From: Tannerella sp.
GTDB lineage: Bacteria; Bacteroidota; Bacteroidia; Bacteroidales; Tannerellaceae
NCBI GenBank assembly: GCA_031260575.1
Contig: JAIRJR010000341.1
Span: forward strand, 1-34,645
Direction: 5' to 3'
DNA length: 34,645 bases
Part shown: positions 14,771 to 34,645 of the stretch, in pieces
Layout: every line of letters begins with the position of its first letter
How positions within the stretch are numbered: the first letter of the stretch is position 1
Notes under the pieces: model-generated
Told to the model about the DNA's origin: nothing
What the model saw: only the letters and a program-made list of their open reading frames with translations
The model's database searches: none
Made by a program: the position numbers and the translations under genes

Positions 14771-15792
14771 ATAATCAGAACATCCGTTTCGCTGTCGTCG
14801 GCTGCGGCCATATCGGTAAGCGCCACATTGAGATGATTGTACGCGAGCAGGGCGCCGAGTTAGCCGCTTTATGTGACGTTTTACCAAAAGCAACGTTGTC
14901 GCTTGAAGCCTGCGATGCGCCTTTTTTTCACAATATCAACGATTTACTCCAAAGCGACATCCCTTTCGATGTGGTAAACATTTGTACTCCCAATGGATTA
15001 CATGCCGGAATGTCGATTCGCGCAATCGAATCGGGACATCATGTTGTCATCGAAAAACCCATGTCGCTAACCGTAGCCGATGCCGAGAAAATCATCCATG
15101 CCTCCATCAAACATCGCAAACAAGTCTTTTGTGTGATGCAAAACCGTTATTCCCCTCCTTCGGTTTGGATCAAGGAAATGGTTGATTCCGGCAGATTGGG
15201 GAAAATATATTTGGTGCAATTGAGTTGCTACTGGAATCGCGACGAACGATATTATCAACCGGATTCGTGGCACGGAAAGGCAGAATCCGACGGAGGAACA
15301 TTGTTTACCCAGTTTTCGCATTTTATTGATCTCCTGTATTGGGTCTTCGGCGATATCTGCGATATCCAAGCCCGTTTTGCCGATTTCAACCATGCCGGAC
15401 TGACTGATTTTGAAGATTCGGGCATGGTGAATTTCAAATTTGTGAACGGTGGGATGGGTAGTTTGTGCTATTCTACTTCGGTATGGGACAGAAACCTGGA
15501 AAGCAGCATGCTCGTTGTTGCCGAAAATGGAAGCGTAAAAATCGGCGGACAGTATATGAACGAAGTATTAGCGTGTCATGTAAAGAATTACGAGATGCCG
15601 GAATTAGCGCCAACCCAACCCGGTAACGACTACGGCGCCTATAAAGGCTCAGCCCAAAACCACCATTATGTAATCCGCAACGTTGTCGATGTACTCCAAA
15701 CAAACTCTTCCGGGCAAATCACCACTAATGTGATGGAAGGCATGAAAGTTGTTGATATCATCCAACGCATCTATGCCCTAAAAAGAAATTAG
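14767..15792 (+). CDS. Gfo/Idh/MocA family oxidoreductase, WlbA/WbpB-like
   Basis: N-terminal Rossmann motif (FAVVGCGHIGKRHIE), EKPMSLTVADAE, QNRYSPP and an H-x3-D motif (HFIDLLYWVFG). Confidence 0.88.
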   Translation: MNNQNIRFAVVGCGHIGKRHIEMIVREQGAELAALCDVLPKATLSLEACDAPFFHNINDLLQSDIPFDVVNICTPNGLHAGMSIRAIESGHHVVIEKPMSLTVADAEKIIHASIKHRKQVFCVMQNRYSPPSVWIKEMVDSGRLGKIYLVQLSCYWNRDERYYQPDSWHGKAESDGGTLFTQFSHFIDLLYWVFGDICDIQARFADFNHAGLTDFEDSGMVNFKFVNGGMGSLCYSTSVWDRNLESSMLVVAENGSVKIGGQYMNEVLACHVKNYEMPELAPTQPGNDYGAYKGSAQNHHYVIRNVVDVLQTNSSGQITTNVMEGMKVVDIIQRIYALKRN

Positions 15793-15843
15793 TCTCCGCA
15801 ATTTTTGAGTGGAATTGTTAATTTTTATAAAATATTCGACTTT

Positions 15844-15876
15844 TTGTGCAGCATTATAAAAAAAACATTACTTTTG
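15844..15876 (+). promoter_or_regulatory. Putative Bacteroidota promoter for the ATP synthase operon
   Basis: TTTTTGTG around 15841-15848 and TACTTTTG at 15869-15876 (TAnnTTTG consensus). Spacing of 22 nt is slightly long. Confidence 0.4.
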
Positions 15877-15909
15877 TCCGGCATTTTGAAAATGCGATGC
15901 ATCTTTTAA

Positions 15910-17460
<1,551 letters not shown>

Positions 17461-17491
17461 GCGTAATTCGCTTGAAGTACAATAATATCAG

Positions 17492-17725
17492 ATGAACTTA
17501 GAAATCATTTCCCCCGAAAAAACAGTTTATTCCGGCGTATCCGAATCGGTTATGCTGCCCGGAATAAATGGATTATTTACGATTCTGGATCGTCATGCGC
17601 CGATAATCTCCGTATTAACAAAAGGTGTCGTGACGTATAGTGTGAATGGCGAAAAAGCAGAAGTGATGATTAGCGGAGGATTTGTTGAAGCTATCCAAAA
17701 TAATGTATCTGTTTGTATTGAATAA
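17492..17725 (+). CDS. atpC: F-type ATP synthase subunit epsilon (short form)
   Basis: 77-aa protein with the epsilon N-terminal beta-sandwich pattern (MNLEIISPEKTVYSGVSESVMLPGINGLFTILDRHAPIIS), located directly after atpD. Confidence 0.92.
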   Translation: MNLEIISPEKTVYSGVSESVMLPGINGLFTILDRHAPIISVLTKGVVTYSVNGEKAEVMISGGFVEAIQNNVSVCIE

Positions 17726-17729
17726 TTAT

Positions 17730-18155
17730 ATGTTGTCGACCAAAAACAGTTATCTCTTTTTTTTAGTTGTGTTGTGTTCAGCACTCACTATCTTGTCGAT
17801 CACTTATGGAGATATGATTTTCGATGAATTACTTCCGATAAAAGGTATTGTGGCGGCAATCGGCATGTTTACCATTCTCGAAATGCTTTCGGTATGGTTT
17901 CTCGAAAGTAGAAGCAGGAAACAGAATCCGCGACAATCGGTCAACATTTTGCTTGGATTGAAAGTGGGCAAAATGCTTTTGGCATTACTTTTCATACTGA
18001 TCTATGCATTAGCCGGTCAAGTGGAAATCAGACGATTTACGGTTGCTTTTCTCGTTCTTTATTTAATCTATTTATTTTCCAATACAACATATTTATCACT
18101 GAGAGAAAAAGGGTTAAAGTCTGCAAGTAAAACCAAACAAGTAACAATAGAATGA
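17730..18155 (+). CDS. Small multi-span membrane protein inside the atp operon (position of an AtpI/I-like subunit)
   Basis: About 141-aa hydrophobic protein from the ATG at 17730; overlaps atpB by 4 bp. The upstream TTG start at 17682 would overlap atpC and is less likely. Confidence 0.65.
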   Translation: MLSTKNSYLFFLVVLCSALTILSITYGDMIFDELLPIKGIVAAIGMFTILEMLSVWFLESRSRKQNPRQSVNILLGLKVGKMLLALLFILIYALAGQVEIRRFTVAFLVLYLIYLFSNTTYLSLREKGLKSASKTKQVTIE

Positions 18156-19303
18156 ATGCTGTATTAAGATATACCATCTTCGTGCTTTTCTTTTTCGCCG
18201 GGAGACTCATCTTCCCTGCGGAATGTATTTCGATGCATGCTCAAAATCAACAAACAATAACTCTCACCCCTGATCATACATCATTATCCCATGTTGCAGA
18301 GGATCCAAAAGCGGATTTTGACGTCACCGAGCTTATATTAGAGCATTTGTCGGATACTTACGAATGGCATATTGTCACCATTGGACATACTCATGTTTCC
18401 ATACCGTTGCCTGTCATCGTAAGAAAAAGCACCGGTCAATGGCTTCTCTTTTCTTCAGCCCGCTTTGAACATGGACACGCAGAATATCAAGGTTTTTATA
18501 TCTCTGAGCATGGGGATTTCAAGGGTAAAATTGTTGAAAAGAATTCCTCCGGCGCTGAAGTTCGCCCATGGGATTTGTCTCTGACCAAAAATGCCTTATC
18601 CTTACTGATAAGCAGCATACTACTGATATTTATGATCCTATCGTGCGCAAGTTGGTACAAGAAACGGCAAGACAAGCCGGATGAGATCTCTCCGAAGGGA
18701 TTTGTCGCATTAATTGAAATGGTCATAACAAGTATCATCGATAGTGTCATTAAACCATGTGTCGGTAAAAACTATAAACGGTATGTGCCGTATCTTCTGA
18801 CCGTTTTCTTTTTTATCTTTTTAAACAACTTGTTAGGTTTAATTCCCCTTTTCCCCGGAGGAGCCAATGTCACGGGCAATATTGCAGTGACTTGTATATT
18901 AGCCATTTTCTCTTTCGTAATCGTGAATATCTTTGGCACCAAAGAATATTGGAGAGAAATATTCTGGCCTGAAGTGCCTTTATGGCTGAAAGCGCCCATA
19001 CCGATTATGCCGGCAATCGAGTTGGTCGGTATTTTTACAAAACCATTTGCATTGATGATTCGTCTATTTGCGAACATTTTAGCCGGCCATTCCATTGTCT
19101 TGGGGTTGACCTGTATGATATTCCTAACCGTAAGCTTAGGAACAGCATTAAATGCAGGAATGAGTTTCTTGGCTGTGGTCATGGCTATTTTCATCAGTTT
19201 TATTGAATTATTGGTAGCCTTTATTCAAGCGTATGTTTTTACGTTGCTTTCAGCCGTCTTTATCGGTTTATCGCAGATAGAACCACATCATGCGAAACAT
19301 TAA
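18152..19303 (+). CDS. atpB: F-type ATP synthase subunit a (long N-terminal extension)
   Basis: Subunit a motifs (PYLLTVFFFIFLNNLLGLIPLFPGGANVTGNIAVT, KPFALMIRLFANILAGHSIVLGL, FIQAYVFTLLSAVFIGL). Confidence 0.95.
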   Translation: MNAVLRYTIFVLFFFAGRLIFPAECISMHAQNQQTITLTPDHTSLSHVAEDPKADFDVTELILEHLSDTYEWHIVTIGHTHVSIPLPVIVRKSTGQWLLFSSARFEHGHAEYQGFYISEHGDFKGKIVEKNSSGAEVRPWDLSLTKNALSLLISSILLIFMILSCASWYKKRQDKPDEISPKGFVALIEMVITSIIDSVIKPCVGKNYKRYVPYLLTVFFFIFLNNLLGLIPLFPGGANVTGNIAVTCILAIFSFVIVNIFGTKEYWREIFWPEVPLWLKAPIPIMPAIELVGIFTKPFALMIRLFANILAGHSIVLGLTCMIFLTVSLGTALNAGMSFLAVVMAIFISFIELLVAFIQAYVFTLLSAVFIGLSQIEPHHAKH

Positions 19304-19355
19304 AAAATATAAAAATAAAGATTCAAAACTATTAAATAAAAATTTAAAAAATTAA

Positions 19356-19616
<261 letters not shown>

Positions 19617-19626
19617 ACGACAAGTT

Positions 19627-20118
19627 ATGTTGTTAACACCCGATCCCGGCCTTATTTTTTGGATGCTGATCTCTTTCGGAGTCGTATTCTTTGTTCTTGC
19701 CAAATTCGGTTTCCCTATCATCGTGAAAATGGTGGATGAACGAAAAGTCTTTATCGACAATTCGTTGGAATCTGCCAAAGCCGCTAATATACGTCTGGCG
19801 GGGATTCAGGAAGAAGGCGCACGGATATTAAAACAAACGCACGACGAAGAACTTCGTATACTGAAAGAGGTTCAGGAGACAAAAAGTAGAATTATCGGAG
19901 AAGCAAAAGAACAAGCAGCTGTTGAAGCCAAGAAAATGATTGCAGAGGCAAAATTGGCAATTCAAAAAGAAAAGGAATTGGCAATTCGCGATATACGCAA
20001 TCAAATTGCCAACTTATCAATTGATATTGCCGAAAAAGTACTGCGCAAGAGCTTGGATAATCCTCAGGCCCAACGTGAATTGGTACAAAGATTGATCGAA
20101 GAAGCGCAAATGAATTAA
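19627..20118 (+). CDS. atpF: F-type ATP synthase subunit b
   Basis: Single N-terminal membrane helix (PDPGLIFWMLISFGVVFFVLAKFGFP) followed by a charged coiled coil; operon position. Confidence 0.95.
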   Translation: MLLTPDPGLIFWMLISFGVVFFVLAKFGFPIIVKMVDERKVFIDNSLESAKAANIRLAGIQEEGARILKQTHDEELRILKEVQETKSRIIGEAKEQAAVEAKKMIAEAKLAIQKEKELAIRDIRNQIANLSIDIAEKVLRKSLDNPQAQRELVQRLIEEAQMN

Positions 20119-20122
20119 TCGA

Positions 20123-20659
20123 ATGGATGCAGGAATTATTTCGCACCGGTACGCAAAGGCTATTTATCAATTTGCTGCTGAACGTAAGGAAGAGAGTCTG
20201 TTGCGGGAAGAACTGAAATTCTTATCGGAACAGTTTCTCTCTTGTCCATCGTTGCAAAAAGCCTTGGACGATCCGACCATCCCGATGACTGTGAAAATCG
20301 ATCTATTGACTACAGCCGCAGGAAGAGAAATCAGTGAAACTTGCAAAAAGGTTCTTCACCTGATCGTTAAAAACAAACGGGTGCATTACCTACAATCTGT
20401 TGCATTGAGGTACGACAAAGTCTACAGGAAAGCCAAGGATTTGGTAATCATGAAATTGGTAACTACTGAGCCGGCAAGTAGTGAGATGAAAAATAAACTT
20501 GTGGATTTAGTCAAGAAAAAAAACGAACAAGTCGAGTTTAATGCGAAAACCGATGCTGATATTATCGGCGGATTTATTCTTGAAATAGATGACCTTCGGT
20601 TGGATGCCTGCGTAAAAAATTTATTAAATCAACTGCGGCTTGAATTAATTCATCCTTAA
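20123..20659 (+). CDS. atpH: F-type ATP synthase subunit delta
   Basis: N-terminal ISHRYAKAIYQFAAE motif and C-terminal IIGGFILEIDDLRLDACVKNLLNQLR motif; operon position. Confidence 0.95.
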   Translation: MDAGIISHRYAKAIYQFAAERKEESLLREELKFLSEQFLSCPSLQKALDDPTIPMTVKIDLLTTAAGREISETCKKVLHLIVKNKRVHYLQSVALRYDKVYRKAKDLVIMKLVTTEPASSEMKNKLVDLVKKKNEQVEFNAKTDADIIGGFILEIDDLRLDACVKNLLNQLRLELIHP

Positions 20660-20675
20660 AAAATAATAAAAATTT

Positions 20676-22262
20676 ATGTCTGATATAAAAGCAAGTGAGA
20701 TTTCACAAATATTGAAAATGCAATTGGAAGGCATTGATTCCCATGTGAAATTCGAAGAAGTAGGTACGGTGCTTCAGGTAAGCGACGGCGTAGCCCGTAT
20801 CTTCGGCCTGAACAACGCCGAATCCGGCGAACTTCTTCAATTTGACAATGGAGAAATGGCTGTTGTAATGAACCTTGAAGAAGACAATGTTGGCGCCGTT
20901 TTACTGGGGCATACCGATTTTGTCAAAGAAGGCGATACCGTCAAACGAACCCGACGGATTGCTTCAATCCCCACCGGCGAAGGCCTCTTGGGACGTGTAG
21001 TCAATCCACTCGGACAACCCATTGACGGAAAAGGCCCTATCTTTGGCGATTTATTGGAAATGCCTTTGGAACGTAAAGCGCCCGGAGTCATATTCCGCCA
21101 ACCGGTTAATGAGCCTTTACAGACCGGAATTATCGCTATTGATGCGATGATCCCTATCGGGCGCGGTCAACGGGAATTGATTATCGGCGACCGTCAAACA
21201 GGCAAAACAGCAATCGGCATTGATACGATCATCAACCAACGAAAAAATTTCTTAGCAGGCAAACCTGTCTATTGTATTTATGTCGCAATCGGACAAAAAG
21301 GTTCGACGGTTGCCAATATCGTGAATACTTTAAAAGAAAAAGGAGCGCTCGAATATACCATTATCATTTCCGCTTCGGCATCCGACCCTGCGGCATTGCG
21401 TTTCTATGCTCCCTATGCAGGGGCGGCAATCGGAGAATTCTTCCGTGATACGGGACGGGCTGCCTTGGTTATCTACGACGACCTTTCCAAACAAGCCGTC
21501 TCTTACCGCGAGGTATCGCTTATTCTTCGCCGCCCATCAGGACGCGAAGCCTATCCCGGAGATATTTTCTATCTGCACTCGCGCTTATTGGAGCGGGCTG
21601 CCAAAATCATCAATAACGATGAAGTAGCTGCACAAATGAATGATGTCCCCGAAAATCTGAAGCCATTTCTCAAAGGTGGAGGCTCATTGACTGCTTTACC
21701 CATTATTGAGACTCAAGCCGGCGACGTTTCGGCATATATCCCGACGAACGTTATTTCGATTACCGACGGACAGATCTTCCTCGAAACCGGTTTGTTTAAT
21801 GCAGGTATACGTCCGGCTATCAATGTCGGTATTTCTGTTTCGCGTGTAGGAGGTAACGCCCAAATTAAAGCCATGAAAAAAATTGCCGGTACACTTAAAA
21901 TCGATCAGGCTCAATACCGCGAATTGGAGGCATTTACTAAATTTGGCAGCGATTTGGATGCCATCACCCGAATGACGTTGGATAAGGGAAGGAAAAATGC
22001 TGCTCTATTGATTCAACCACAGTATAATCCATTGCCCGTCGAGTACGAAATCGCTTTGATTTATGCAGGGACAAAGGGCTTGTTATATGATATTCCGGTT
22101 GAAAAAGTCAATGATTTTGCGAAAGAATATCTGGAACGGTTGGAATTGAAATACAGGAGTCAAGTGCTTGACGTTCTTCAGAAAGGCATACTCAATGAAG
22201 AAGTTGAAAAGTTGCTTACACAAACAGCAACAGATTTGATAGGCGATTTCAAAAAGCAGTGA
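20676..22262 (+). CDS. atpA: F-type ATP synthase subunit alpha
   Basis: [61 protein letters not shown]. Confidence 0.98.
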
Positions 22263-22299
22263 ATATAAAAGGTTTTAGGTGTAAAGTTAAAGGAAAGAA

Positions 22300-23181
22300 A
22301 TGTCGTCATTAAAAGAAATAAAAGGACGTATTGCCTCGGTAAAATCGACAAAGAAAATTACCTCGGCGATGAAGATGGTTGCATCTTCCAAACTTCATAA
22401 AGCACATTCTTTGGTCGAACGGTTTTTGCCCTATGAACGCCGGGTCACGAATATCTTAAATGATTTCTTAGCCGGGTATAGCGAGGATAACAGCATTTCG
22501 TCTGTTTTTGCAGAGGTCAGGGCAATCAAACGCGTAGCTATTGTTGCCCTTTCTTCCAACTCCAGTCTGTGCGGCGCTTTCAATTCCAACATCATACGCA
22601 TTGTAAACGACCGGATCAGGAAATACCGTGAGCAGAATTATGAAATAGTAGTCTATCCGGTTGGAAAAAAAATCGAGTCTTTTATCAACAAATTGACTGT
22701 TCCCGTCGAAACAAAAGGAAGTTATATATCATTAATGGATAAACCCAACTTTGAAGGCGCTAAACAAATTGCCGATGCCTTAATGAAAGATTTTCTTACC
22801 AAACAAATCGATCGGGTTGATTTAGTTTACAACCATTTCAAAAGTACAGGTGTTCAAGTCCCAACCGATGAATTGTTTTTGCCTGTCAAACTGACAAAAC
22901 CCGAAAATTTCAGGGCAATTCCAATAGACTACTTAGTCGAACCGGACCGTAAAACCATTGTAGAATCACTGATTCCCACTTCATTACGAACGAAAATTTA
23001 TGCTATACTTTTGGATTCGTCGGCAGCAGAACATGCAGCCCGAACCGTTGCCATGCAAATTGCCACCGACAATGCCGATGAGATTCTGAGTGATTTGACC
23101 ATTCAATTCAATAAACAACGCCAGCAAGCCATTACCAGCGAAATTTTAGATATTATCGGCGGATCGGAAGCCCTTAAATAA
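22300..23181 (+). CDS. atpG: F-type ATP synthase subunit gamma
   Basis: N-terminus SSLKEIKGRIASVKSTKKITSAMKMVASSKL and C-terminal NKQRQQAITSEILDIIGGSEAL. Confidence 0.97.
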   Translation: MSSLKEIKGRIASVKSTKKITSAMKMVASSKLHKAHSLVERFLPYERRVTNILNDFLAGYSEDNSISSVFAEVRAIKRVAIVALSSNSSLCGAFNSNIIRIVNDRIRKYREQNYEIVVYPVGKKIESFINKLTVPVETKGSYISLMDKPNFEGAKQIADALMKDFLTKQIDRVDLVYNHFKSTGVQVPTDELFLPVKLTKPENFRAIPIDYLVEPDRKTIVESLIPTSLRTKIYAILLDSSAAEHAARTVAMQIATDNADEILSDLTIQFNKQRQQAITSEILDIIGGSEALK

Positions 23182-23190
23182 AAAAATGTA

Positions 23191-23238
23191 AAAAAACAAC
23201 TCCCCTTCGTTTCCTAACGAAGGGGAGTTGTTTTTTTT
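23191..23238 (+). terminator. Strong Rho-independent terminator after atpG, with A-rich 5' flank (potentially bidirectional)
   Basis: Perfect long stem aaaaaacaactccccttcgtt / aacgaaggggagttgtttttt with loop TCCT, followed by a T-tract, directly after the atpG stop. Confidence 0.95.
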
Positions 23239-23376: not shown

Positions 23377-24864
23377 ATGGGAGTCATCATCCGTCAAAGC
23401 ATTAAAGGAACCATTGTCAATTACATCGGCTCATTTATCGGATTTCTGACCACCATGTTCGTATTGACCCGATTTCTTCAACCGGAAGAAATCGGGTTGA
23501 CACGTGTCATTTATGAAGCCGCTGTACTCATTGCGGGTTTCGCCCAATTGGGCATAACCGGAACAGCTTTTCGTTTTTTCCCTTATTTTCAATCTGATAA
23601 AAACAATCACAATGGTTTTTTCTTTTATTTAGTCTTGTTGCCAACCATCGGTATTATACTTTTTATCCCGTTATATGTTTTATTAAAAGAGCCTATCTCT
23701 GCTTTTTTCAGTATCAATGCCTTACTTTTCGATCATTATTATTATTGGATCATATTCCTGATTATTTTTATTGCATTTTGGACCGCATTCGAGATTTATT
23801 CAAACTTGTTGATGCGTATTGTCATGCCCAAATTTATACGCGAAATCGCCGTGCGGATTTTGTTATTAGCAGTCTATCTTTTATTTGCATTTAAATTTCT
23901 GAATCTTGACGGACTTGTCGGCGGCTTTATTGCCGTGTATGGCATCGCGATGGTCCTTACATTTACGTATATTTCCCGAATTAGCCCGGTATCATTGAAA
24001 CACGACTTTTCTTTTATCGACAAGCCTTTGGGGAAAAAAATCAGAAACTATACTTTGTTCCTGGTTTTATCTTCATTAAGTGGAAGTATCTTGAATCAAT
24101 TGGATGTCTTTATGTTGGGTTCTCATTTGGGCTTTAGCTATGTAGGTGTCTTTACAATCGCTTTTTTTATGGGAAATGTAGTGGAAATACCCTCTCGTTC
24201 GATTTCGTCCATTTCCTCGCCTATTGCTGCAAAAGCGCTAAAAGAAGGAGATATGCACACTGCCAATCAATTATATAAAAAAGTCTCCCTTCATCAATTT
24301 TTAGCAGGAAGTATCATATTCCTCCTTGTTTGGATTAATATTGATAATATCTTTTCCATTATTCCCAATGGTGACGTGTTTAGCGCAGGAAAATGGGTGG
24401 TTTTTTTTATTGCATTAGCCAAACTTTTGAATGTGACATTGAATTTTGGCGGAATTCTTATTTCTTATTCCAAATATTATTACTGGACACTTTTCTTTCT
24501 GGTATTTATTACCATTACCGGCATTGTATCCAATCTAATATTAATACCCAAATATGGGATTACAGGCGCTGCAATAGCCACATTCATAACCTATATGTTA
24601 CTTTCAGGCGTACAACAATGGATCGTTTTGGCTAAAATAAAAGGAAATCCATTTTCAATGAGTTTGTTAAAATGTTTCCTTCTGATAATCCTATTATTCG
24701 GTATCAATTATTTCCTTCCGGTCTGGTCTCCCAACCCTTTTATTGACGGATTCTATCGTTCCTTGATCATCGGTACACTCACTCTGATTTCTCTATATAA
24801 ATTGAAAATCTCGGATGAGATTTCTTTAATCATTGACAAAGTTTTAAAAAGGGATCGGATTTAA
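23377..24864 (+). CDS. Polysaccharide/oligosaccharide flippase, Wzx-like (MATE/MVF-fold membrane protein)
   Basis: About 495-aa multi-span membrane protein; N-terminus GTIVNYIGSFIGFLTTMFVLTRFLQPEEIGLTR typical of polysaccharide biosynthesis flippases. Confidence 0.88.
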   Translation: MGVIIRQSIKGTIVNYIGSFIGFLTTMFVLTRFLQPEEIGLTRVIYEAAVLIAGFAQLGITGTAFRFFPYFQSDKNNHNGFFFYLVLLPTIGIILFIPLYVLLKEPISAFFSINALLFDHYYYWIIFLIIFIAFWTAFEIYSNLLMRIVMPKFIREIAVRILLLAVYLLFAFKFLNLDGLVGGFIAVYGIAMVLTFTYISRISPVSLKHDFSFIDKPLGKKIRNYTLFLVLSSLSGSILNQLDVFMLGSHLGFSYVGVFTIAFFMGNVVEIPSRSISSISSPIAAKALKEGDMHTANQLYKKVSLHQFLAGSIIFLLVWINIDNIFSIIPNGDVFSAGKWVVFFIALAKLLNVTLNFGGILISYSKYYYWTLFFLVFITITGIVSNLILIPKYGITGAAIATFITYMLLSGVQQWIVLAKIKGNPFSMSLLKCFLLIILLFGINYFLPVWSPNPFIDGFYRSLIIGTLTLISLYKLKISDEISLIIDKVLKRDRI

Positions 24865-24883: not shown

Positions 24884-25867
24884 ATGAATATAAAACAAGT
24901 ATTAGTTACCGGAGCTGATGGCTTTATTGGTTCGCACCTAACAGAGATGTTATTGGCAAAAGGATATAAAGTCAAAGCACTGTCCCATTATAATTCATTT
25001 AACCACTGGGGATGGTTAGAAGAGATAAATCATGCTGACTTGGAGGTTATTACAGGCGATGTGCGTGATCCTCATTTTTGTAAATACATCACAAAAGATG
25101 TGGATACGGTCTTCCACCTTGCCGCACTCATAGCCATTCCTTATTCTTATTTTGCTCCCGACAGTTATGTAGACACAAACATCAAAGGAACGCTCAATAT
25201 ATGTCAGGCAGCCAAGGAAAATGACATCAAGCGAGTTTTGGTGACATCCACTTCGGAGGTTTACGGAACAGCAAAATATGTACCTATCGATGAAAACCAC
25301 CCTAAACAACCTCAATCGCCTTATTCGGCGTCAAAGATTGGGGCTGATGCCATGGGGATGAGTTTCTATCATGCTTTTGGATTACCGGTTACAGTTGTAC
25401 GACCATTTAATACATACGGCCCCAGGCAATCAGCGCGAGCGATCATACCAACCATTATAACCCAAATCGCAAATGGAGTAAAAGAAATCAAATTAGGGGA
25501 TTTAAGACCTTCCCGGGATTTTAATTATGTAAAAGATATTTGTAAAGGATTCATTGAAATATCAGAAAGTGACTTAACAATCGGGAGGGAGGTGAATGTT
25601 TGCAGTAACCACGAAATCACGATGCATTCTGTTTTTGAATTAATTGCCAAATTAATGCATGCTGAAGTAATATTTATTGAAGACAGTCGGCGACTAAGGC
25701 CTGAGAATTCGGAGGTATTCCGGTTATGGGGTGATAATTCCATAATAAAATCATTAGTCGGGTATTTGCCCGCTTATAGTTTAGAAGAAGGTTTGAAAGA
25801 AACAATTGAATGGTTTTCGGACAAAACCAATTTGAAAAAATATAAATCCTACATCTATAATGTATAA
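24884..25867 (+). CDS. legB: NAD-dependent sugar-nucleotide 4,6-dehydratase, LegB type
   Basis: SDR motifs (VLVTGADGFIGSHLTEMLL, TSTSEVYGTAKYVPIDE, YSASKIGAD, RPFNTYGPRQSARAIIPTII); LegB-like N-terminus (ALSHYNSFNHWGWL); neighbourhood. Confidence 0.87.
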   Translation: MNIKQVLVTGADGFIGSHLTEMLLAKGYKVKALSHYNSFNHWGWLEEINHADLEVITGDVRDPHFCKYITKDVDTVFHLAALIAIPYSYFAPDSYVDTNIKGTLNICQAAKENDIKRVLVTSTSEVYGTAKYVPIDENHPKQPQSPYSASKIGADAMGMSFYHAFGLPVTVVRPFNTYGPRQSARAIIPTIITQIANGVKEIKLGDLRPSRDFNYVKDICKGFIEISESDLTIGREVNVCSNHEITMHSVFELIAKLMHAEVIFIEDSRRLRPENSEVFRLWGDNSIIKSLVGYLPAYSLEEGLKETIEWFSDKTNLKKYKSYIYNV

Positions 25868-27014
25868 GGATATTATTCAATTCATACAAAACCTCTATGG
25901 CACGAAGGATATGATACCGCTTCATGCTCCATTCTTTATGGGAAATGAAAAAAAATTTCTGGATGAATGTATGGATAGTACTTATGTTTCGGGAGTAGGG
26001 AAATTTGTCGACCGTTTCGAGGCAATGATGGAAGATTATACAGGATGTAAAAAAGCGGTAGCGTGCGTCAATGGAACCAATGCACTCCATCTGTCGTTAT
26101 TATTATCCGGGGTTGAGCGGAATGATGAAGTGATCACTCAGCCATTGACTTTTATAGCTACATGCAATGCCATCATTTATGCAGGCGCTCATCCGGTCTT
26201 TATTGATGTTGATAAAGATACGATGGGATTATCGCCGGTAGCAGTAGACGAATGGTTAAGCCAAAATACGTATATAGAAAATCTTACTTGCTATAACAAA
26301 AAAACAGGAAGAAGAGTTAAAGTCTGCCTGCCCATGCATACATTCGGGCATCCGGTTCATTTAGACGGATTGATGGCTGTTTGCGATAAATATTACCTTG
26401 AATTGGTTGAAGATGCAGCCGAAAGTTTGGGTAGTTTTTATAAAGGGAAGCATACCGGAACATTTGGGAAAATCGGAATAATCAGTTTTAACGGCAATAA
26501 GACAATCACAACCGGGGGAGGCGGAATGATGTTATTTAATGATGAAAAATTGGCAAAACGTGCAAAACATCTGACTACACAAGCAAAATTGCCTCATCGC
26601 TGGGATTTTATACATGATGAGATCGGATACAATTATCGTTTGCCGAATATCAATGCAGCCTTAGGATGTGCCCAAATGGAATATTTAGACAAAATACTGG
26701 CTCAGAAAAGAGAAATTGCGATGGCATACAAAAAATACTTTCAAGCGAAAAAAGACATCGTCTATGTAGACGAACCCGATAATTGTCAATCGAATTTTTG
26801 GTTGAATACAATCCTTTTTAGCGGAAGGGAAGGTCGCGATCTGTTTTTGAAATACAGCAATGATCATCACGTCATGACTCGTCCAGCTTGGACCTTAATG
26901 AACCGGCTTCCAATGTTCGCTTTGGCGCAATGTGGAAGTCTGGATAATGCGATTTCGATCGAAGGCAGAATTGTCAATTTACCAAGTAGTGCAAATAGGT
27001 ACAATGAAACATAA
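25860..27014 (+). CDS. legC: DegT/DnrJ-family aminotransferase, LegC type
   Basis: FVDRFEAMMEDYTGCKKAVACVNGTNALHLSLLL, EDAAESLGSFYKGKHTGTFGKIGIISFNGNKTITTGGGGM; follows legB with an 8-bp overlap. Confidence 0.87.
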   Translation: MYKDIIQFIQNLYGTKDMIPLHAPFFMGNEKKFLDECMDSTYVSGVGKFVDRFEAMMEDYTGCKKAVACVNGTNALHLSLLLSGVERNDEVITQPLTFIATCNAIIYAGAHPVFIDVDKDTMGLSPVAVDEWLSQNTYIENLTCYNKKTGRRVKVCLPMHTFGHPVHLDGLMAVCDKYYLELVEDAAESLGSFYKGKHTGTFGKIGIISFNGNKTITTGGGGMMLFNDEKLAKRAKHLTTQAKLPHRWDFIHDEIGYNYRLPNINAALGCAQMEYLDKILAQKREIAMAYKKYFQAKKDIVYVDEPDNCQSNFWLNTILFSGREGRDLFLKYSNDHHVMTRPAWTLMNRLPMFALAQCGSLDNAISIEGRIVNLPSSANRYNET

Positions 27015-27618
27015 CAAGCTTATTCTTATTGGCGGGGGCGGTCATTGTAAGTCGGTCATAGATGTGGCTGAGAGTGCGGGATGGACGATTCTCGGTGTAT
27101 TAGATAGGGCTGAAAATGTAGGGGAAAAAGTCCTGAACTACAACATAATCGGTATTGATGAACAAATTCCCGAATTTGTTCATCAAGCTTTATTCTTGGT
27201 TACTGTCGGTCAAATAAAAGATGCCGGAACCCGTAAAAGAATACATGAGCAAATCATTGCCGCAGGTGGTGAATTGGCTAATGTAATCGCTTCCGATGCA
27301 CACGTCTCAAAATTTGCTGATCTTGAAAAAGGAACTGTTGTTATGCACAAAGCTGTTATCAACGCAAATACGAAGATCGGCATGGGTTGTATAATTAACA
27401 CAATGGCTAATATTGAACACGATACGATTATCGGAAATTACTGTCACATATCTACCGGCGCTATGGTCAATGGCAATTGTTTGATAGGAAATGAAACGTT
27501 TATCGGTAGCGGTGCGATTCTCCATCATGGCATTACCCTTGCTAATCATTGCATTGTAACAGCAGGCGCCATTGTTCGGAAGAGTATATCGAAAAGTGGT
27601 GTAAATATCGGCAATTAA
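27004..27618 (+). CDS. NeuD/PglD/LegH-like sugar O/N-acyltransferase (left-handed beta-helix)
   Basis: N-terminus KLILIGGGGHCKSVIDV and hexapeptide repeats (IGMGCIINTMANIEHDTIIGNYCHISTGAMVNGNCLIGNETFIGSGAILHHGITL). The start at 27004 is preferred over 26932. Confidence 0.85.
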   Translation: MKHNKLILIGGGGHCKSVIDVAESAGWTILGVLDRAENVGEKVLNYNIIGIDEQIPEFVHQALFLVTVGQIKDAGTRKRIHEQIIAAGGELANVIASDAHVSKFADLEKGTVVMHKAVINANTKIGMGCIINTMANIEHDTIIGNYCHISTGAMVNGNCLIGNETFIGSGAILHHGITLANHCIVTAGAIVRKSISKSGVNIGN

Positions 27619-27632
27619 TTATAAATCATATC

Positions 27633-28637
27633 ATGCACCCGACAATCATCATTGCTGAAGCAGGCGTCAACCATAATGGTTCTATGGAATTAGCTAAAAA
27701 GCTCATTGACGTTGCTGCTACGGCCAAAGCTGATTATGTGAAGTTTCAGACTTTTCAGACCGGAATGGTTGTAACCAAATCAGCCCAAAAGGCAGATTAT
27801 CAGCAGATAAATACCTATAACGATACTTCTCAATATGAGATGCTTAAAAAATTACAACTGACAACAGCTCAACATTTCGAACTGATCAAATATTGTAACA
27901 CTTGCGGTATTAAATTCTTATCTACCGCCTTTGATTTGGATAGCATAGATTTTCTTGCAAGCCTTCATCTCGGTTTATGGAAAATACCTTCCGGTGAAAT
28001 TACGAATTACCCCTATTTGAAACGAATTGCAAGAGAAAAACAACCGGTAATTCTTTCTACAGGTATGAGCACAATGGAAGAAATAATGGGGGCAGTGAAT
28101 ATTTTAGTAGAATACGGAACAGACAAACAGCAGATTACGCTTTTACATTGCAACACACAATATCCAACACCGATGCAGGATGTGAATCTACGCGCCATGG
28201 ATACAATCGCCAAAGAAACAGGTCTCAAAATAGGTTATTCCGACCATACTTTGGGTATTGAAGTCCCTATTGCGGCAGCAGCGCTTGGTGCGATGGTGAT
28301 TGAAAAACATTTTACATTGGATCGAAATCTGGAAGGTCCTGATCACAAAGCTTCGATCGAACCCGACGAATTGAAAGCCATGATCGCCGCGATCCGCAAC
28401 GTAGAAAAAGCGCTCGGTTCTTACGAAAAAACAGTTACCTTATCTGAAAAAGAAAATATCCCCATCGCTCGAAAGAGTATTGTCGCTTCAAAATGTATCG
28501 CCAAAGGCGAAACGTTTTCTGAATATAATCTTACGGTCAAACGACCCGGCAACGGTATATCTCCTATGAAATGGAATGATTTACTGGGTAGATGTGCAGT
28601 GCGTGATTTTGAAGAAGATGAATTGATTGTGTTATGA
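27633..28637 (+). CDS. legI: N-acetylneuraminate/legionaminate synthase family (NeuB/LegI) with C-terminal SAF domain
   Basis: IIIAEAGVNHNGSMELAKKLIDVAATAKADYVKFQTF, WKIPSGEITNYPYLKRIA, GYSDHTLGIEVPIAAAALGAMVIEKHFTLDRNLEGPDHKASIEPDEL. ATG at 27633 preferred. Confidence 0.9.
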   Translation: MHPTIIIAEAGVNHNGSMELAKKLIDVAATAKADYVKFQTFQTGMVVTKSAQKADYQQINTYNDTSQYEMLKKLQLTTAQHFELIKYCNTCGIKFLSTAFDLDSIDFLASLHLGLWKIPSGEITNYPYLKRIAREKQPVILSTGMSTMEEIMGAVNILVEYGTDKQQITLLHCNTQYPTPMQDVNLRAMDTIAKETGLKIGYSDHTLGIEVPIAAAALGAMVIEKHFTLDRNLEGPDHKASIEPDELKAMIAAIRNVEKALGSYEKTVTLSEKENIPIARKSIVASKCIAKGETFSEYNLTVKRPGNGISPMKWNDLLGRCAVRDFEEDELIVL

Positions 28638-29797
28638 GAAAAATTTGTGTCATAACAGGTAGCCGGGCTGAATATGGCTTAATGAGTCGTTTGATGCGAT
28701 TCATTCAAGATGATGGTGATTTTCAATTACAGATTATTGCCACGAATATGCATTTGGCGGTTGAATATGGCGAAACTTATAAGGAAATAGAAGCCGATGG
28801 ATTTGTTGTTGATAAGAAAATTCCGATATTGTCTTCGTCCGACTCTGCTCATGCTACGGTAAAATCGGTCGGAAAGGGAATTATCGGTTTTGCCGATGCT
28901 TATGAGGAGTTACAACCGGATTCGATTATGGTGCTCGGCGACAGATATGAGATATTAGCAGCCGTCTCAGCGGCAATGTTTTATAAAATACCCATCGTCC
29001 ATCTCCATGGAGGAGAAATTACAGAAGGCGCCTACGACGATGCCATCCGTCATGCCATTACCAAAATGTCACACTTACATTTTACCTCCACAGCGGAATA
29101 TCGTCAGCGAGTGATTCAAATGGGTGAACGCCCGGATACTGTTTACCATGTGGGTTCTTTGGGATGTGATAATATCAGGCATATCCCACTTATCGAGAAA
29201 GAAGAATTGGAAACATCATTAAACTTTGCGTTGGATAGAAACACTATCTTCGTCACATTTCATCCGGTAACCATGGAAACAAACACAGCTGAATCTCAAT
29301 TTAAAGAGTTACTGTCGGCCATTGATCAAATAAAATACTTACGAATTATTTTTACAATGCCTAATTCGGATACCGACAGTCGAATTATCATGAATCTAAT
29401 TAAGGAATATGTTTCCCAAAATGCTGAAAAAGCGGTCTGGTTTGCTTCTTTGGGAATGAGACGTTATCTGTCAGTGTTGCAATATATTGGGGCAGTGGTT
29501 GGAAATTCTTCCAGCGGCATAATCGAAGTCCCAAGTTTTCACATTCCTACATTAAATATTGGAGACAGGCAAAAAGGTCGCATTACAGCGGCGAGTGTGG
29601 TACATGGTAAGCCTGAAAGAGCGGATATTGAAGAAAAACTGACAACCATCATTCAACCCGGCTTTACCGAATCATTAAAAAACATTCAGAATCCTTATGA
29701 AAAGCCAAATACGGCAAAAGAAATCATACGTATTCTCAAGGAAAAAGAACTAAAGCCAAATAAAAAATTTTACAATCTGCAGGGATGGAGCAGTTAA
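28634..29797 (+). CDS. legG: Hydrolysing UDP-sugar 2-epimerase (NeuC/LegG family)
   Basis: ICVITGSRAEYGLMSRLMRFI, VLGDRYEILAAVSAA, HLHGGEITEGAYDDAIRHAITKMSHLHF, GNSSSGIIEVPSF. Confidence 0.9.
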   Translation: MRKICVITGSRAEYGLMSRLMRFIQDDGDFQLQIIATNMHLAVEYGETYKEIEADGFVVDKKIPILSSSDSAHATVKSVGKGIIGFADAYEELQPDSIMVLGDRYEILAAVSAAMFYKIPIVHLHGGEITEGAYDDAIRHAITKMSHLHFTSTAEYRQRVIQMGERPDTVYHVGSLGCDNIRHIPLIEKEELETSLNFALDRNTIFVTFHPVTMETNTAESQFKELLSAIDQIKYLRIIFTMPNSDTDSRIIMNLIKEYVSQNAEKAVWFASLGMRRYLSVLQYIGAVVGNSSSGIIEVPSFHIPTLNIGDRQKGRITAASVVHGKPERADIEEKLTTIIQPGFTESLKNIQNPYEKPNTAKEIIRILKEKELKPNKKFYNLQGWSS

Positions 29798-30822
29798 AAA
29801 AATATGTAATTGAAAGAAATGCAACAATCATAGAAGCCATTGTGCGACTTGATAAACTTTCGAACGATGTACTGACTTTGTTTGTTCTTGATAGAGAACA
29901 GATGGTGGGCACATTGACAGATGGAGACATTCGACGAGCCTTAATTCGTAATATCCCGTTAGATGCATGCGTGGATCTGGTGATGAACAAATCGTTTAAA
30001 TATGTTTTTCCCAAAGAAAAGGACATAAAAAAAATTCGCGAAATAAAGGCAAGTGGAGTTCAATTATTGCCATGTTTGGGAGAAAATGGAGAGTTATTAA
30101 ACATATATAATCTGAAAACGAGAAAATCCATTTTGCCGATAGATGCGGTACTGATGGCCGGAGGCAAAGGAGTACGCTTACGTCCGTTGACCGTGAATGT
30201 ACCAAAACCTCTTTTACCTGTTGGAAACAAAACAATTATTGATTATAATGTTGACAACCTGATATGTCATGGCATTGATAATATCCATATTATTACTAAC
30301 TATTTGGCTGAACAGATTGATAGACATTTTGCTGATAAAAGGAATGGAATACAGGTTGACTGTGTGCGTGAAAAAGAATATTTAGGAACCATCGCATCCG
30401 TCAAATGTATCCAAAACATCAAAAATGATGATGTTTTGGTTATGAACTCCGACTTGTTTACCAATATTGATTTTGAAGATTTTTATGGTCATTTTTTGGA
30501 AAAAGAAGCCGATATGTCAGCGGCGGCAATTCCTTATTCCATCAATGTTCCTTATGGTATTTTTGAATTAAAAGAAGGGTATATCAAAGGAGTCAAAGAG
30601 AAACCCACTTTTAATTATTATGCCAATGCAGGTATTTATCTCATCAAAAAAAGTTTGCTTGATTTAATACCGGATGACACGTTTTTTAACGCAACCGATT
30701 TTATGGAATTGCTTATATCACACGAGAAAACAGTGGTTCATTATCCATTGGTGGGATATTGGATTGATATTGGGAAACCTGCTGATTATCAAAAAGCACA
30801 GGAATTAGCTAAGCATTTATAA
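29785..30822 (+). CDS. ptmE: Sugar-phosphate nucleotidyltransferase with N-terminal CBS domains (PtmE-type, GlcN-1-P guanylyltransferase)
   Basis: N-terminal CBS-like segment (LTDGDIRRALIRNIPLDACVDLVMNK) fused to an NTP-transferase domain (DAVLMAGGKGVRLRPLTVNVPKPLLPVGNKTIIDYNV); inside the leg gene set. Confidence 0.83.
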   Translation: MEQLKKYVIERNATIIEAIVRLDKLSNDVLTLFVLDREQMVGTLTDGDIRRALIRNIPLDACVDLVMNKSFKYVFPKEKDIKKIREIKASGVQLLPCLGENGELLNIYNLKTRKSILPIDAVLMAGGKGVRLRPLTVNVPKPLLPVGNKTIIDYNVDNLICHGIDNIHIITNYLAEQIDRHFADKRNGIQVDCVREKEYLGTIASVKCIQNIKNDDVLVMNSDLFTNIDFEDFYGHFLEKEADMSAAAIPYSINVPYGIFELKEGYIKGVKEKPTFNYYANAGIYLIKKSLLDLIPDDTFFNATDFMELLISHEKTVVHYPLVGYWIDIGKPADYQKAQELAKHL

Positions 30823-30839: not shown

Positions 30840-31556
30840 ATGTATAACAATCAGAAGATATTGGCAATTATCCCTGCAAGAGGGGGTAGTAAAGGATTGC
30901 CGGGTAAAAACATCAAACCATTATTGGGAAAACCGCTTATTGGATGGACTATTGAGCAAGCTAAAGCAAGTAAATATATTACAGAAATATTTGTTTCAAC
31001 CGATAGCCGAGAGATCGCCGATGTTGCGGAATCATTCGGAGTTTCTATTCCCGAGTTGCGTCCCTCAGAATTAGCTATTGATACTGCAACTTCATCAAGT
31101 TTTGTGGTTTATACTCTTGAAAAACTACGCAAAGAAGGTAAAAATTTCAATTACATCTTACTGCTTGAACCCACATCACCTCTGAGAAAGAATGAAGACA
31201 TTGACTCGGCAATCGAACTTGCCTTGTCCAATCCTGAAAAGAATAGTGTGGTAAGTCTCGGTGAAGTGCATATGGAACATCCCATGATTGTCAAAAAACT
31301 TGATAAAAAGGGGAATATCATTCCATATCTTGAGCAAAGCTTTGTTTTGACACAAAGACAAGAAGCAGATAAAGCATACTTCCCGTATGGAGTGGTCTAT
31401 CTTGTTAAAACAAATTATTTTATGGAAACAAAAAAGTTTTATGACGAACACTCTTTACCCTACTTTATTGAACGTTGGCAAGGTTATGAAGTAGATGACA
31501 TTTACGACTTCTTATGCATTGAAGCAATATTAAAATATCAAACATCAAAAAAATGA
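30840..31556 (+). CDS. legF: CMP-nonulosonate (CMP-Neu5Ac/CMP-legionaminate) cytidylyltransferase
   Basis: ILAIIPARGGSKGLPGKNIKPLLGKPLIGWTIEQA, EPTSPLR, and neighbourhood. Confidence 0.9.
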   Translation: MYNNQKILAIIPARGGSKGLPGKNIKPLLGKPLIGWTIEQAKASKYITEIFVSTDSREIADVAESFGVSIPELRPSELAIDTATSSSFVVYTLEKLRKEGKNFNYILLLEPTSPLRKNEDIDSAIELALSNPEKNSVVSLGEVHMEHPMIVKKLDKKGNIIPYLEQSFVLTQRQEADKAYFPYGVVYLVKTNYFMETKKFYDEHSLPYFIERWQGYEVDDIYDFLCIEAILKYQTSKK

Positions 31557-32557
31557 ATCGTATGAAATTTGTAGTGATTGGATTAGGCTCTATGGGGAAG
31601 CGGCGCATCAGATGCCTGTTAGCCCTTGGACATAAAAAGGAAGATATTTATGGATTTGATCTTCGCGATGACAGGAAACAAGAGGTTCGTAGTTTATATG
31701 GTGTCGAAATAATTGATGATATCAATTTAGTTGATTTTTCGGACATTAATGCTGTGATTGTATCATTGCCGCCGGATAAACATGCTATCGGTGTAAAAAT
31801 TGCAATTGATCATGACAAACCTGTTTTTATTGAAGCAAGCGTTATTTTGGACGATGTATTAGATATTCAAAGTTATAATAACAATAAAGTTTTTATCGCT
31901 CCTTCATGTACAATGACTTACCACCCCATGATCAAAGATATAAAAAACATCATTCAAAGCGGTAAGTACGGTAAGGTTTGCAATTTCTCATATCATAGCG
32001 GACAATATCTGCCCGATTGGCATCCTTGGGAAAAAGTCACAGATTTTTATGTGGGACAGCGAATTACAGGAGGAGCAAGGGAAATCGTTCCTTTTGAATT
32101 TACATGGATAGTCAATCTGTTGGGTTTCCCAAAAGAGGTAAAAGGATATTACCGAAAAACCATCGATTTTGGATGCGATATTGAAGATAGTTATTGCTGT
32201 ACCATAAATTATGGCGACATCGTGGGGACAATGATTGTAGACGTGGCAGCGCGATATGCAGTACGCAATTTGATAATCAATTTGGAAGAAGCGCAAATCC
32301 AATGGCGTTGGGATAAAAAACAAATTGAATTATATGAATCGCAAACCGGCCGGTGGATCATGATTAACCAACCGACATTTAGCAGTGTTGGCGGTTATAA
32401 TGAAAACATTGGAGAAAAAATGTATATTGATGAGATGAACGCTTTCATTATGGGAATTAACGATCCTTCTATCTATCCAAATTCCATTGAGAAAGATATA
32501 AAAGTATTGCAACTATTGAAAGCGATCGAAGACTCTGATGGGGGATTTGAACGATAA
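31553..32557 (+). CDS. Gfo/Idh/MocA family oxidoreductase
   Basis: Rossmann N-terminus KFVVIGLGSMGKRRIRCLLALGH, VSLPPDKHAIGVKIAIDHDKPVFIEASV; overlaps the legF stop by 4 bp. Confidence 0.8.
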   Translation: MNRMKFVVIGLGSMGKRRIRCLLALGHKKEDIYGFDLRDDRKQEVRSLYGVEIIDDINLVDFSDINAVIVSLPPDKHAIGVKIAIDHDKPVFIEASVILDDVLDIQSYNNNKVFIAPSCTMTYHPMIKDIKNIIQSGKYGKVCNFSYHSGQYLPDWHPWEKVTDFYVGQRITGGAREIVPFEFTWIVNLLGFPKEVKGYYRKTIDFGCDIEDSYCCTINYGDIVGTMIVDVAARYAVRNLIINLEEAQIQWRWDKKQIELYESQTGRWIMINQPTFSSVGGYNENIGEKMYIDEMNAFIMGINDPSIYPNSIEKDIKVLQLLKAIEDSDGGFER

Positions 32558-32596: not shown

Positions 32597-33913
32597 ATGA
32601 ATATGGGTAAATCACAAGAATTGTATATACAGGCGAAAAAGATTATTCCCGGCGGAACGCAACTATTAAGCAAACGGCCTGAACAATTTTTGCCGGATTA
32701 TTGGCCGGCATATTATCAAAAAGCCAAAGGTTGTAAGGTTTGGGATTTGGATGGCAGGGAATATGTTGACGCAAGTTATATGGGTATTGGCGCTAATATT
32801 ATTGGTTATGCGGATGATGACATCGACAATGCTGTAAAGAAAGTTATTGATGCAGCCAATATGACTACCTTAAATCCTCCTGAGGAGGTGGATTTAGCTA
32901 AACTGCTGATCAACCTTCATCCCTGGGCGGAGATGGTACGCTTTACACGCAGTGGAGGCGAAGCGATGATGGTAGCAATACGAATTGCCAGGGCTGCAAC
33001 CGGTAAAGATATTGTACTTTTCTGTGGTTATCATGGCTGGCATGACTGGTATATTGCGGCAAATCTTTCCAATGATTCGGCTTTGGATGGGCAATTGCTT
33101 CCGGGGTTGAAACCGGCCGGAGTGCCCAGGCATTTAGCAGACACCTCATTCCCATTTGGTTTTAACGATAAGAAACAATTCCAACAATTGACTACCAAGT
33201 ACAAAAATCAAATTGCCGCAGTCGTCATGGAACCTATCCGCAATATTGACCCGGAAGAAGGTTTTTGGGAATGTATTCAATCTGAAACTGCAAAACATGG
33301 GATCGCATTAATTATTGATGAAATAACTGCCGGTTGGCGACTCAATCTGGGCGGCGCACATTTGGTGTACGGAATCAAACCTGATATAGCCGTTTTTGCC
33401 AAAGGGATGAGTAATGGCTACCCAATGGCAGCTGTCATAGGAAAGAAAAATTTTATGGATGCCGCTCAGGATTCATTTATCAGTAGTACATACTGGACAG
33501 AGCGTATCGGGCCCACAGCAGCTCTATCGACAGTACAAAAAATGAAACTTCTTAATGTTCAGGATCATTTGATTAAAATGGGTAAACTGATTCAAGACGG
33601 ATGGAATGAATCTGCAAAAAAAACAGGGCTTAGCATCCGCATCGGCTCTATTTATCCGTTAAGTCATTTTGAATTTCTGCATGAACAACCACTGGCGCTT
33701 AAAACGCTCTTCACACAAGAAATGTTGGATCGGGGGTTTTTGGCGACTACTTCTTTTTATTGCAGCTATGCTCATACTGAAGAGGTTATTAAGCAATATC
33801 TTAATGCCGTAGAAGAAACATTTCTTATCCTTAAACAATCCATTGATCAAGGTAATACCAGCCATTTGTTGCGAGGCGCTGTTTGTCAAAGCGGATTCAA
33901 GAGGTTGAATTAA
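32597..33913 (+). CDS. Class III PLP-dependent aminotransferase (glutamate-1-semialdehyde aminomutase-like)
   Basis: IIPGGTQLLSKRPEQFLP, FTRSGGEAMMVAIRIARAATGK, YHGWHDW, LIIDEITAGWRLNLGG, PDIAVFAKGMSNGYPMAAVIG (candidate PLP lysine in FAKGMSNGYP). Confidence 0.88.
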   Translation: MNMGKSQELYIQAKKIIPGGTQLLSKRPEQFLPDYWPAYYQKAKGCKVWDLDGREYVDASYMGIGANIIGYADDDIDNAVKKVIDAANMTTLNPPEEVDLAKLLINLHPWAEMVRFTRSGGEAMMVAIRIARAATGKDIVLFCGYHGWHDWYIAANLSNDSALDGQLLPGLKPAGVPRHLADTSFPFGFNDKKQFQQLTTKYKNQIAAVVMEPIRNIDPEEGFWECIQSETAKHGIALIIDEITAGWRLNLGGAHLVYGIKPDIAVFAKGMSNGYPMAAVIGKKNFMDAAQDSFISSTYWTERIGPTAALSTVQKMKLLNVQDHLIKMGKLIQDGWNESAKKTGLSIRIGSIYPLSHFEFLHEQPLALKTLFTQEMLDRGFLATTSFYCSYAHTEEVIKQYLNAVEETFLILKQSIDQGNTSHLLRGAVCQSGFKRLN

Positions 33914-33928
33914 GTTCCGACTACCATT

Positions 33929-34645
33929 ATGAAGCAAATTATTCGTTTTTTTCTTAAACTCGCCTATACATTATATGGGCTAATAAAGATATTAGCCGGT
34001 ACAAAGTTTCGGGCAAAAAAGAAGATACTGAATGCCAACTCGGAACCATATTATATTTTAGGAAATGGCCCATCGTTAAAAAATGATATAAGTAGGTTCG
34101 ATTTGAATTTGAAATCTGACAATTTGATGGTTGTCAATGATTTCGCAATTACAGAACTGTACACTGAACTTAAACCTGAATTTTATATTTTAGCAGACCC
34201 GGCTTACTATGTTGAAAACTTAAAGCCAAATCTACAAATCATTGCACAAAACTTATTTGTAGCTTTGCATGAAAAAACAAATTGGCCTTTATCCATTTTT
34301 GTCCCCTACGAAGGGCTTAAAAAGATTCAAGAAAAACTCAAAGAAAATGAGCATATCACTGTTTTGGGATATAATAAAGTGAATACCTGGAAAGGATTCA
34401 AATGGTTTGATCGTTGGATGTATCATAAACAATGGGCAATTATTAGCGGCCTTAATGTCATCATGGTAGCATTATCTCTATCTATTTCAATGGGTATTAA
34501 AAAAATATATTTATTGGGCGTAGATCATGACTGGTTTAAAAATTTGGTGGTCGGTGATGACAATTTACTGTATATTTTAGATACTCATTTTTATGATGAT
34601 GACAATTTAAAACCTGTTCCCCTTTCAATTGAGCGAAATAATCAA
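33929..34645 (+). CDS. Truncated (3' end outside window) GT42-like/DUF115-like protein, candidate nonulosonate glycosyltransferase
   Basis: I translated this by hand because it is not in the ORF track: 239 open codons from the ATG at 33929 to the window end. Contains YILGNGPSLKNDISRFDL and AIISGLNVIMVALSLSISMGIKKIYLLGVDHDWF, resembling the GNGPSL and SGxxMxxxAIALGYKEIYLxGID motifs of CstII-type sialyltransferases and DUF115 proteins. Confidence 0.6.
   Translation, partial: MKQIIRFFLKLAYTLYGLIKILAGTKFRAKKKILNANSEPYYILGNGPSLKNDISRFDLNLKSDNLMVVNDFAITELYTELKPEFYILADPAYYVENLKPNLQIIAQNLFVALHEKTNWPLSIFVPYEGLKKIQEKLKENEHITVLGYNKVNTWKGFKWFDRWMYHKQWAIISGLNVIMVALSLSISMGIKKIYLLGVDHDWFKNLVVGDDNLLYILDTHFYDDDNLKPVPLSIERNNQ

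Follow-up and report, generated by a model that had tools for sequence, protein, structure and literature searches.

Known nonulosonate transferases and related enzymes

In some Bacteroidota, the surface glycans are capped by nonulosonates. In the literature searched, the reported transferases of legionaminic (Leg) and pseudaminic (Pse) acid are flagellin enzymes of the Maf/FlmG type and the GtfS pair of Tannerella. Maf is a three-domain flagellin enzyme of 632 aa, which works with CMP-pseudaminate/legionaminate (PMC11339370, PMC9298399), with Maf4 presented there as a putative legionaminyl transferase (PMC9298399). The central domain of Maf, PF01973, is said to resemble Cst-II in structure (PMC11339370). 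The enzymes of families GT29 and GT42 are inverting and use a histidine base, His188 being the general base of CstII (PMC4202792, PMC8433944). In T. forsythia, the gene of the nonulosonate transferase comes after wzx and, next to it, the pse or leg genes (PMC6120980, PMC6388019), and the general O-glycosylation locus of Bacteroides begins with metG and wzx (PMC12871550).

Structure of the locus

The window, i.e., the whole stretch of DNA analysed here (34,645 bp), is an entire contig of Tannerella sp. It ends within a gene of the PF01973 (formerly DUF115) family, whose product is, on computational evidence, very probably a nonulosonate transferase of an uncharacterised DUF115 type. The following features were distinguished in the terminal part of the window:

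23191..23236, no strand: strong terminator-like hairpin, bidirectional, between the atp genes and the wzx-leg-DUF115 run (from a consensus scan only)
23377..24864, +: Wzx-type flippase (PF01943)
24884..25867, +: LegB 4,6-dehydratase (TIGR04180, above the cut-off)
25860..27014, +: LegC aminotransferase (TIGR04181)
26932..27618, +: NeuD/LegH-type acetyltransferase (TIGR03570)
27549..28637, +: NeuB/LegI nonulosonate synthase (TIGR03569, PF03102)
28634..29797, +: NeuC/LegG sugar-nucleotide 2-epimerase (TIGR03568)
29785..30822, +: PtmE-type sugar-1-P nucleotidyltransferase (named by pathway analogy)
30840..31556, +: CMP-nonulosonate synthetase (CTP_transf_3; profile match)
31553..32557, +: GFO/IDH/MocA oxidoreductase (profile match)
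32597..33913, +: class-III (glutamate-1-semialdehyde-type) aminotransferase, probable nonulosonate modification (also in the L026 locus)
33929..34645, +: edge-truncated PF01973 (DUF115) gene, predicted CMP-nonulosonate (legionaminate) transferase, with the N-terminal 239 of some 290 residues encoded

All genes from wzx through the DUF115 gene lie on one strand, and the terminator-like hairpin precedes them, after the atp genes. The CMP-legionaminic-acid pathway is complete upstream of the DUF115 gene, from LegB and LegC through NeuD/LegH, NeuB/LegI, NeuC/LegG and the PtmE-type enzyme to the CMP-sugar synthetase, in agreement with a preliminary description that had placed the gene directly after a leg pathway. 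Judged from these upstream genes alone, the donor sugar of the window copy is probably legionaminic acid rather than another nonulosonate. A close relative of the class-III aminotransferase (E = 2e-147) lies inside a CMP-synthetase/NeuB locus of another species of the genus (L026), a recurrence that suggests an extra amino modification of the nonulosonate.

Farther upstream (11595-23181), the wzx-leg run is preceded by metG (11595-13637), by two sugar-type genes encoding a DegT aminotransferase and a GFO/IDH oxidoreductase, and by the ATP synthase cluster; metG is thus separated from wzx by the sugar-type genes and this cluster. A MetG gene also occurs in the flanks of 9 loci of the family described below. 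In Bacteroides propionicigenes, the DUF115 gene is followed by those of the CMP synthetase, NeuB and an HAD phosphatase; beyond the latter, on the opposite strand, lie glycosyltransferase-like genes, a flippase-like gene and MetG (these last genes being named by sequence, with scans covering part of them).

The DUF115 frame begins with an ATG located 15 bases past the stop codon of the aminotransferase gene, on the same strand, and encodes 239 aa without a stop codon up to the last base of the contig. Since the window is the entire contig, the truncation is attributable to the assembly edge. In a single-sequence search of 199 related genomes, homologs of about 279-320 aa aligned across most of the window protein (best E = 2e-44), and these alignments, together with the PF01973 match, show that it is no chance open reading frame. 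The frame noticed in the preliminary description is thus real, and the two stretches singled out there, YILGNGPSL near the N-terminus (residues 42-50) and WAIISGLNVIMVALSLSISMGIKKIYLLGVDHDWF (residues 169-203), are both present. From the sizes of the full-length homologs, about 50 C-terminal residues are missing from the window copy, including the conserved N-x-T-x-x-S-x-I-D-A-F block of the family. A profile of this tail gave 0 matches in the rest of the same assembly, a weak negative, as the search was run without a positive control.

Family assignment and conserved residues

The window protein matched Pfam PF01973 (MptE-like) with E = 7.6e-10 and 39.3 bits (cut-off 34.6) over residues 30-202, corresponding to profile positions 15-168 of 171, and no NCBIfam model named it. 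The same domain was detected in 17 of 18 and 72 of 73 aligned family members, often weakly, many of the 73 scoring below the cut-off (scan at E <= 0.1). Homologs were found in 19 of the 199 related genomes by single-sequence search, and a profile search added only a few distant PF01973 proteins to this set. A genome-contig collection yielded 390 relatives, the best 80 of which belong to Bacteroidota and a few FCB-group neighbours; this search was built on the narrower alignment A2, as the conservation in alignment A1 was too low for a pattern. When the window protein was the only query, no relatives were found in the genome and viral collections and no meaningful match was obtained in the PDB; a search of phage records for relatives also gave none.

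Four segments of the protein were distinguished:

33929..34003, +: N-terminal helix (residues 2-24), hydrophobic and basic; membrane association predicted (AlphaFold2 secondary structure, hydrophobicity, charge)
34049..34078, +: YYILGNGPSL motif, N46-G47-P48 near-invariant; putative donor-binding region by analogy with CstII
34517..34537, +: G197-V-D-H-D-W-F block following the core strand (alignments and predicted secondary structure)
34586..34597, +: H220-F-Y-D motif, H220 invariant (73/73 and 18/18); candidate general base

In the 18- and 73-sequence alignments, H220, F221, N70 and G197 are invariant, and N46-G47-P48, N149, N176, W202, N212 and Y222 have exceptions in at most two sequences. 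H200 is variable, with Ser and Asn in the close relatives L020 and L024. A hydrophobic, basic helix covers the first approximately 25 residues throughout the family. The window copy is divergent (branch length 1.16, top identity 35%, nearest by path L024 and L020), and the PRPH block of most members is replaced in it by ISGL. It may therefore use another donor or acceptor. In the family tree, leg-linked copies occur in more than one place and much of the deep branching is poorly supported, so the tree was used for no donor assignment.

The preliminary description had likened the protein to both GT42 and DUF115 sialyltransferases. The DUF115 part stands, through the PF01973 match, and the GT42 part does not. 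Membership in GT42 as a true CstII-type sialyltransferase is suggested by the GNGPSL and GYKxIYLxGxD stretches common to CstI and CstII (PF06002; 1ro7, 2p2v), by the A1 profile, which retrieved CstI from the PDB at E = 0.0013, and by hhalign, which paired the family with CstII (1ro7) at 92% probability from GNGPSL to the GID region. The deeper A5 profile gave no PDB match, and the A1-CstI match is for this reason treated as weak. PF06002 was matched neither by the window protein (to E = 10) nor by the 73 members (E <= 0.1), so that GT42 membership is unsupported at the family-profile level; over the 199 relatives, the PF06002 profile gave 0 matches, an uninformative result, as the control was equally silent. 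The position of CstII Tyr156, which together with Tyr162 we take to be catalytic, is occupied by Asp or Trp in the family. H220, which lies downstream of the GxD block, may be the counterpart of CstII His188, an equivalence that the MAFFT alignment did not make clear. The sequence relation to CstI/CstII is remote, and a true GT42 enzyme is highly unlikely.

More distant single-domain PF01973 proteins from the same taxonomic order were observed in apparent polysaccharide loci L143 and L141 (G174, G185), one of them adjoining a gene for a CMP-sugar-synthetase-like protein; they may represent a separate branch of PF01973 transferases.

Predicted fold and remote relatives

AlphaFold2 models were obtained for a full-length homolog from locus L044 (pLDDT 95.1, pTM 0.92) and for the window fragment (pLDDT 84.2, pTM 0.79). 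In Foldseek searches of the PDB, Maf from Magnetospirillum ranked first for both. The homolog matched Maf (5mu5) at E = 9.7e-6, human ST8SiaIII (5bo9) at 2.2e-4, the archaeal 6-hydroxymethylpterin diphosphokinase MptE of M. jannaschii (HPPK; 8sd5) at 4e-4, about level with ST8SiaIII, and the ST3Gal-type 2wml at 0.01, and the fragment matched Maf at 1.2e-4 and ST8SiaIII at 5.3e-4. CstII did not appear by name among the 50 best PDB folds of either model, the nearest solved folds being Maf and the GT29 enzyme ST8SiaIII, followed by MptE. The TM-scores of the fold matches are 0.4-0.5, so the match is of superfamily level only. The GT29 enzymes ST8SiaIII and ST3Gal1 are the second-best structural matches, with no detected sequence similarity to the family.

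The closeness to Maf, which has the same Pfam domain and is the best structural match, raises the reading of a Maf-like enzyme that would glycosylate Ser/Thr residues of a cytoplasmic protein, flagellin for example, directly with the nonulosonate. Maf has three domains, whereas the family consists of one domain of about 290 aa with a membrane-type N-terminal helix and lacks the N- and C-terminal domains of Maf. No flagellin was found in a search of 61 genomes (the window's own genome and 60 relatives), which disfavours a Maf-type protein substrate, and the hydrophobic, basic helix and the upstream flippase suggest a lipid-linked acceptor instead. We regard a Maf-like protein glycosyltransferase as quite improbable here.

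The Pfam name suggests a second reading, that of a 6-hydroxymethylpterin diphosphokinase making a folate/pterin precursor. The only curated family match is indeed 'MptE-like', and MptE has a related fold and stands among the top folds. This reading is disfavoured by a canonical bacterial HPPK encoded elsewhere in the genome (PF01288, E = 4.3e-35); moreover, the neighbours and fusion partners of the family are CMP-nonulosonate genes, not pterin genes, and Maf glycosyltransferases carry the same Pfam domain. A pterin kinase is very improbable. The best reading of the family is a DUF115 nonulosonate transferase forming an uncharacterised subfamily, with GT42 membership unsupported; none of its members is characterised in the literature searched.

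Phage and mimivirus proteins annotated as MptE-like/DUF115 have the same fold (BFVD, E down to 1e-9), which suggests that viral PF01973 glycosyltransferases exist.

Association with NeuB and CMP-sugar synthetase genes

Strong NeuB matches were found in 18 of the 19 genomes with the family and in 33 of the 180 without it (Fisher 2.6e-11; 199 related genomes, kinship ignored), the exception (G039) carrying the family gene only as a fragment on a 4.4-kb contig. NeuB shares the contig with 15 of 18 family copies, at a distance of at most 7.5 kb. As a control in NeuB-carrying genomes, 3 of 39 flippases, drawn from the top-scoring flippase matches alone, were located within 10 kb of NeuB (Fisher 2.4e-8).

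Of 96 family loci, picked by sequence similarity and not by neighbours, 70 contained NeuB, which lay at most three genes from the family gene in 63; a CTP_transf_3 CMP synthetase was present in 68 loci, and 65 had both (organism kinship is ignored in these counts and a few loci are the same place twice). Among the 21 genomes whose loci have no nearby NeuB, a strong NeuB is encoded elsewhere in 17 and a partial one at the end of a contig in one; the remaining three yielded no convincing NeuB. The linked pathways vary from full leg clusters and pse-like clusters to NeuB and CMP synthetase alone; since they differ, the constant link is the CMP-activated nonulosonate itself. A leg cluster precedes, among others, the G044 copy in L024.

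In four Bacteroidota loci (L072, L075, L077 and L091), the family domain and a second domain are encoded in one frame of 540-552 aa. The second domain is CTP_transf_3 by Pfam in the two that were scanned (9e-26 and 1e-24; L072 and L077), and the NeuB gene is next after the fusion genes. In the unfused loci L071 and L112, the last 4 bases of the family gene are shared with a separate gene for this synthetase.

A remaining alternative is that the product takes part in nonulosonate glycan assembly without being the donor-using transferase, as an accessory or inactive paralogue, for instance, and that this transferase is encoded past the contig edge. The locus is truncated and the window copy divergent, and T. 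forsythia has, at the equivalent position behind wzx and its pse/leg genes, a differently built transferase (GtfS/TFUB4_00887; PMC6120980, PMC6388019) of 442-445 aa with DXD, D/E-D/E-G and HP motifs (PMC6388019), a description that sets it apart from the family. However, the family gene lies directly beside NeuB and the CMP synthetase in many loci and is fused to the synthetase in four, and the catalytic-type residues, which do not vary within the family, are largely retained by the window copy. This alternative is thus unlikely. The NeuB association, the gene fusions and the locus context make it very probable, computationally, that the gene product is the CMP-nonulosonate-consuming transferase, the role proposed for it at the outset: the first reading recognised a real gene, probably guessed its role correctly and assigned the wrong CAZy family.

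Proposed function and significance

We propose that this transferase, a stand-alone PF01973-type glycosyltransferase, would take the CMP-legionaminic-acid derivative made by the upstream genes and, on the cytoplasmic side of the inner membrane, pass the nonulosonate on to an acceptor. The CMP-sugar would be bound by the GNGPS loop and N70 and, by analogy with GT29/GT42, His220 may deprotonate the acceptor hydroxyl, with a presumably inverting and metal-independent transfer. The N-terminal helix could keep the enzyme on the membrane, and its hydrophobic, basic character fits an enzyme that is associated with the membrane and acts on a lipid-linked acceptor. The acceptor would be a lipid-linked outer glycan (a protein O-glycan or similar), later exported by the Wzx flippase; we give a lipid-linked acceptor about an even chance.

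Context, fusions and a sialyltransferase-like predicted fold mark the family, widespread in Bacteroidota and now labelled as a pterin (folate) kinase, as a putative nonulosonate transferase. We lean towards a broader view, in which it would be a phylum-wide family of CMP-nonulosonate transferases, a new CAZy-type glycosyltransferase distinct from GT42, GT29, Maf and GtfS, serving legionaminic, pseudaminic and Kdn/sialic-type sugars, sometimes fused to the CMP-donor synthetase and hidden by the pterin-kinase annotation. The family, with 390 relatives in one genome collection, offers a concrete candidate transferase in gut and environmental species, and the synthetase-transferase fusions could serve enzymatic glycan synthesis. 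Its database name steers readers to folate metabolism; a 2025 paper reads an MptE-like gene of Campylobacter coli, which may or may not be a Maf gene, as folate-related (PMC12102941).

A GT2 gene is located immediately upstream of the family gene in 29 of the 96 loci. In L045, L052, L063, L065, L067, L069 and L087 (Flavobacteria and relatives), the family gene has a family-2 glycosyltransferase gene beside it or a few genes away, in otherwise housekeeping surroundings with no nearby NeuB. L066, also with no nearby NeuB, carries, immediately ahead of the DUF115 gene, one gene for an HMGL-like aldolase and one for a CTP_transf_3-HAD fusion (L066:7312-9995), and a pair resembling it, judged by the protein starts, occurs in L061 (L061:15274-17565); these pairs possibly reflect a different route of ulosonic-acid synthesis using a non-NeuB aldolase.
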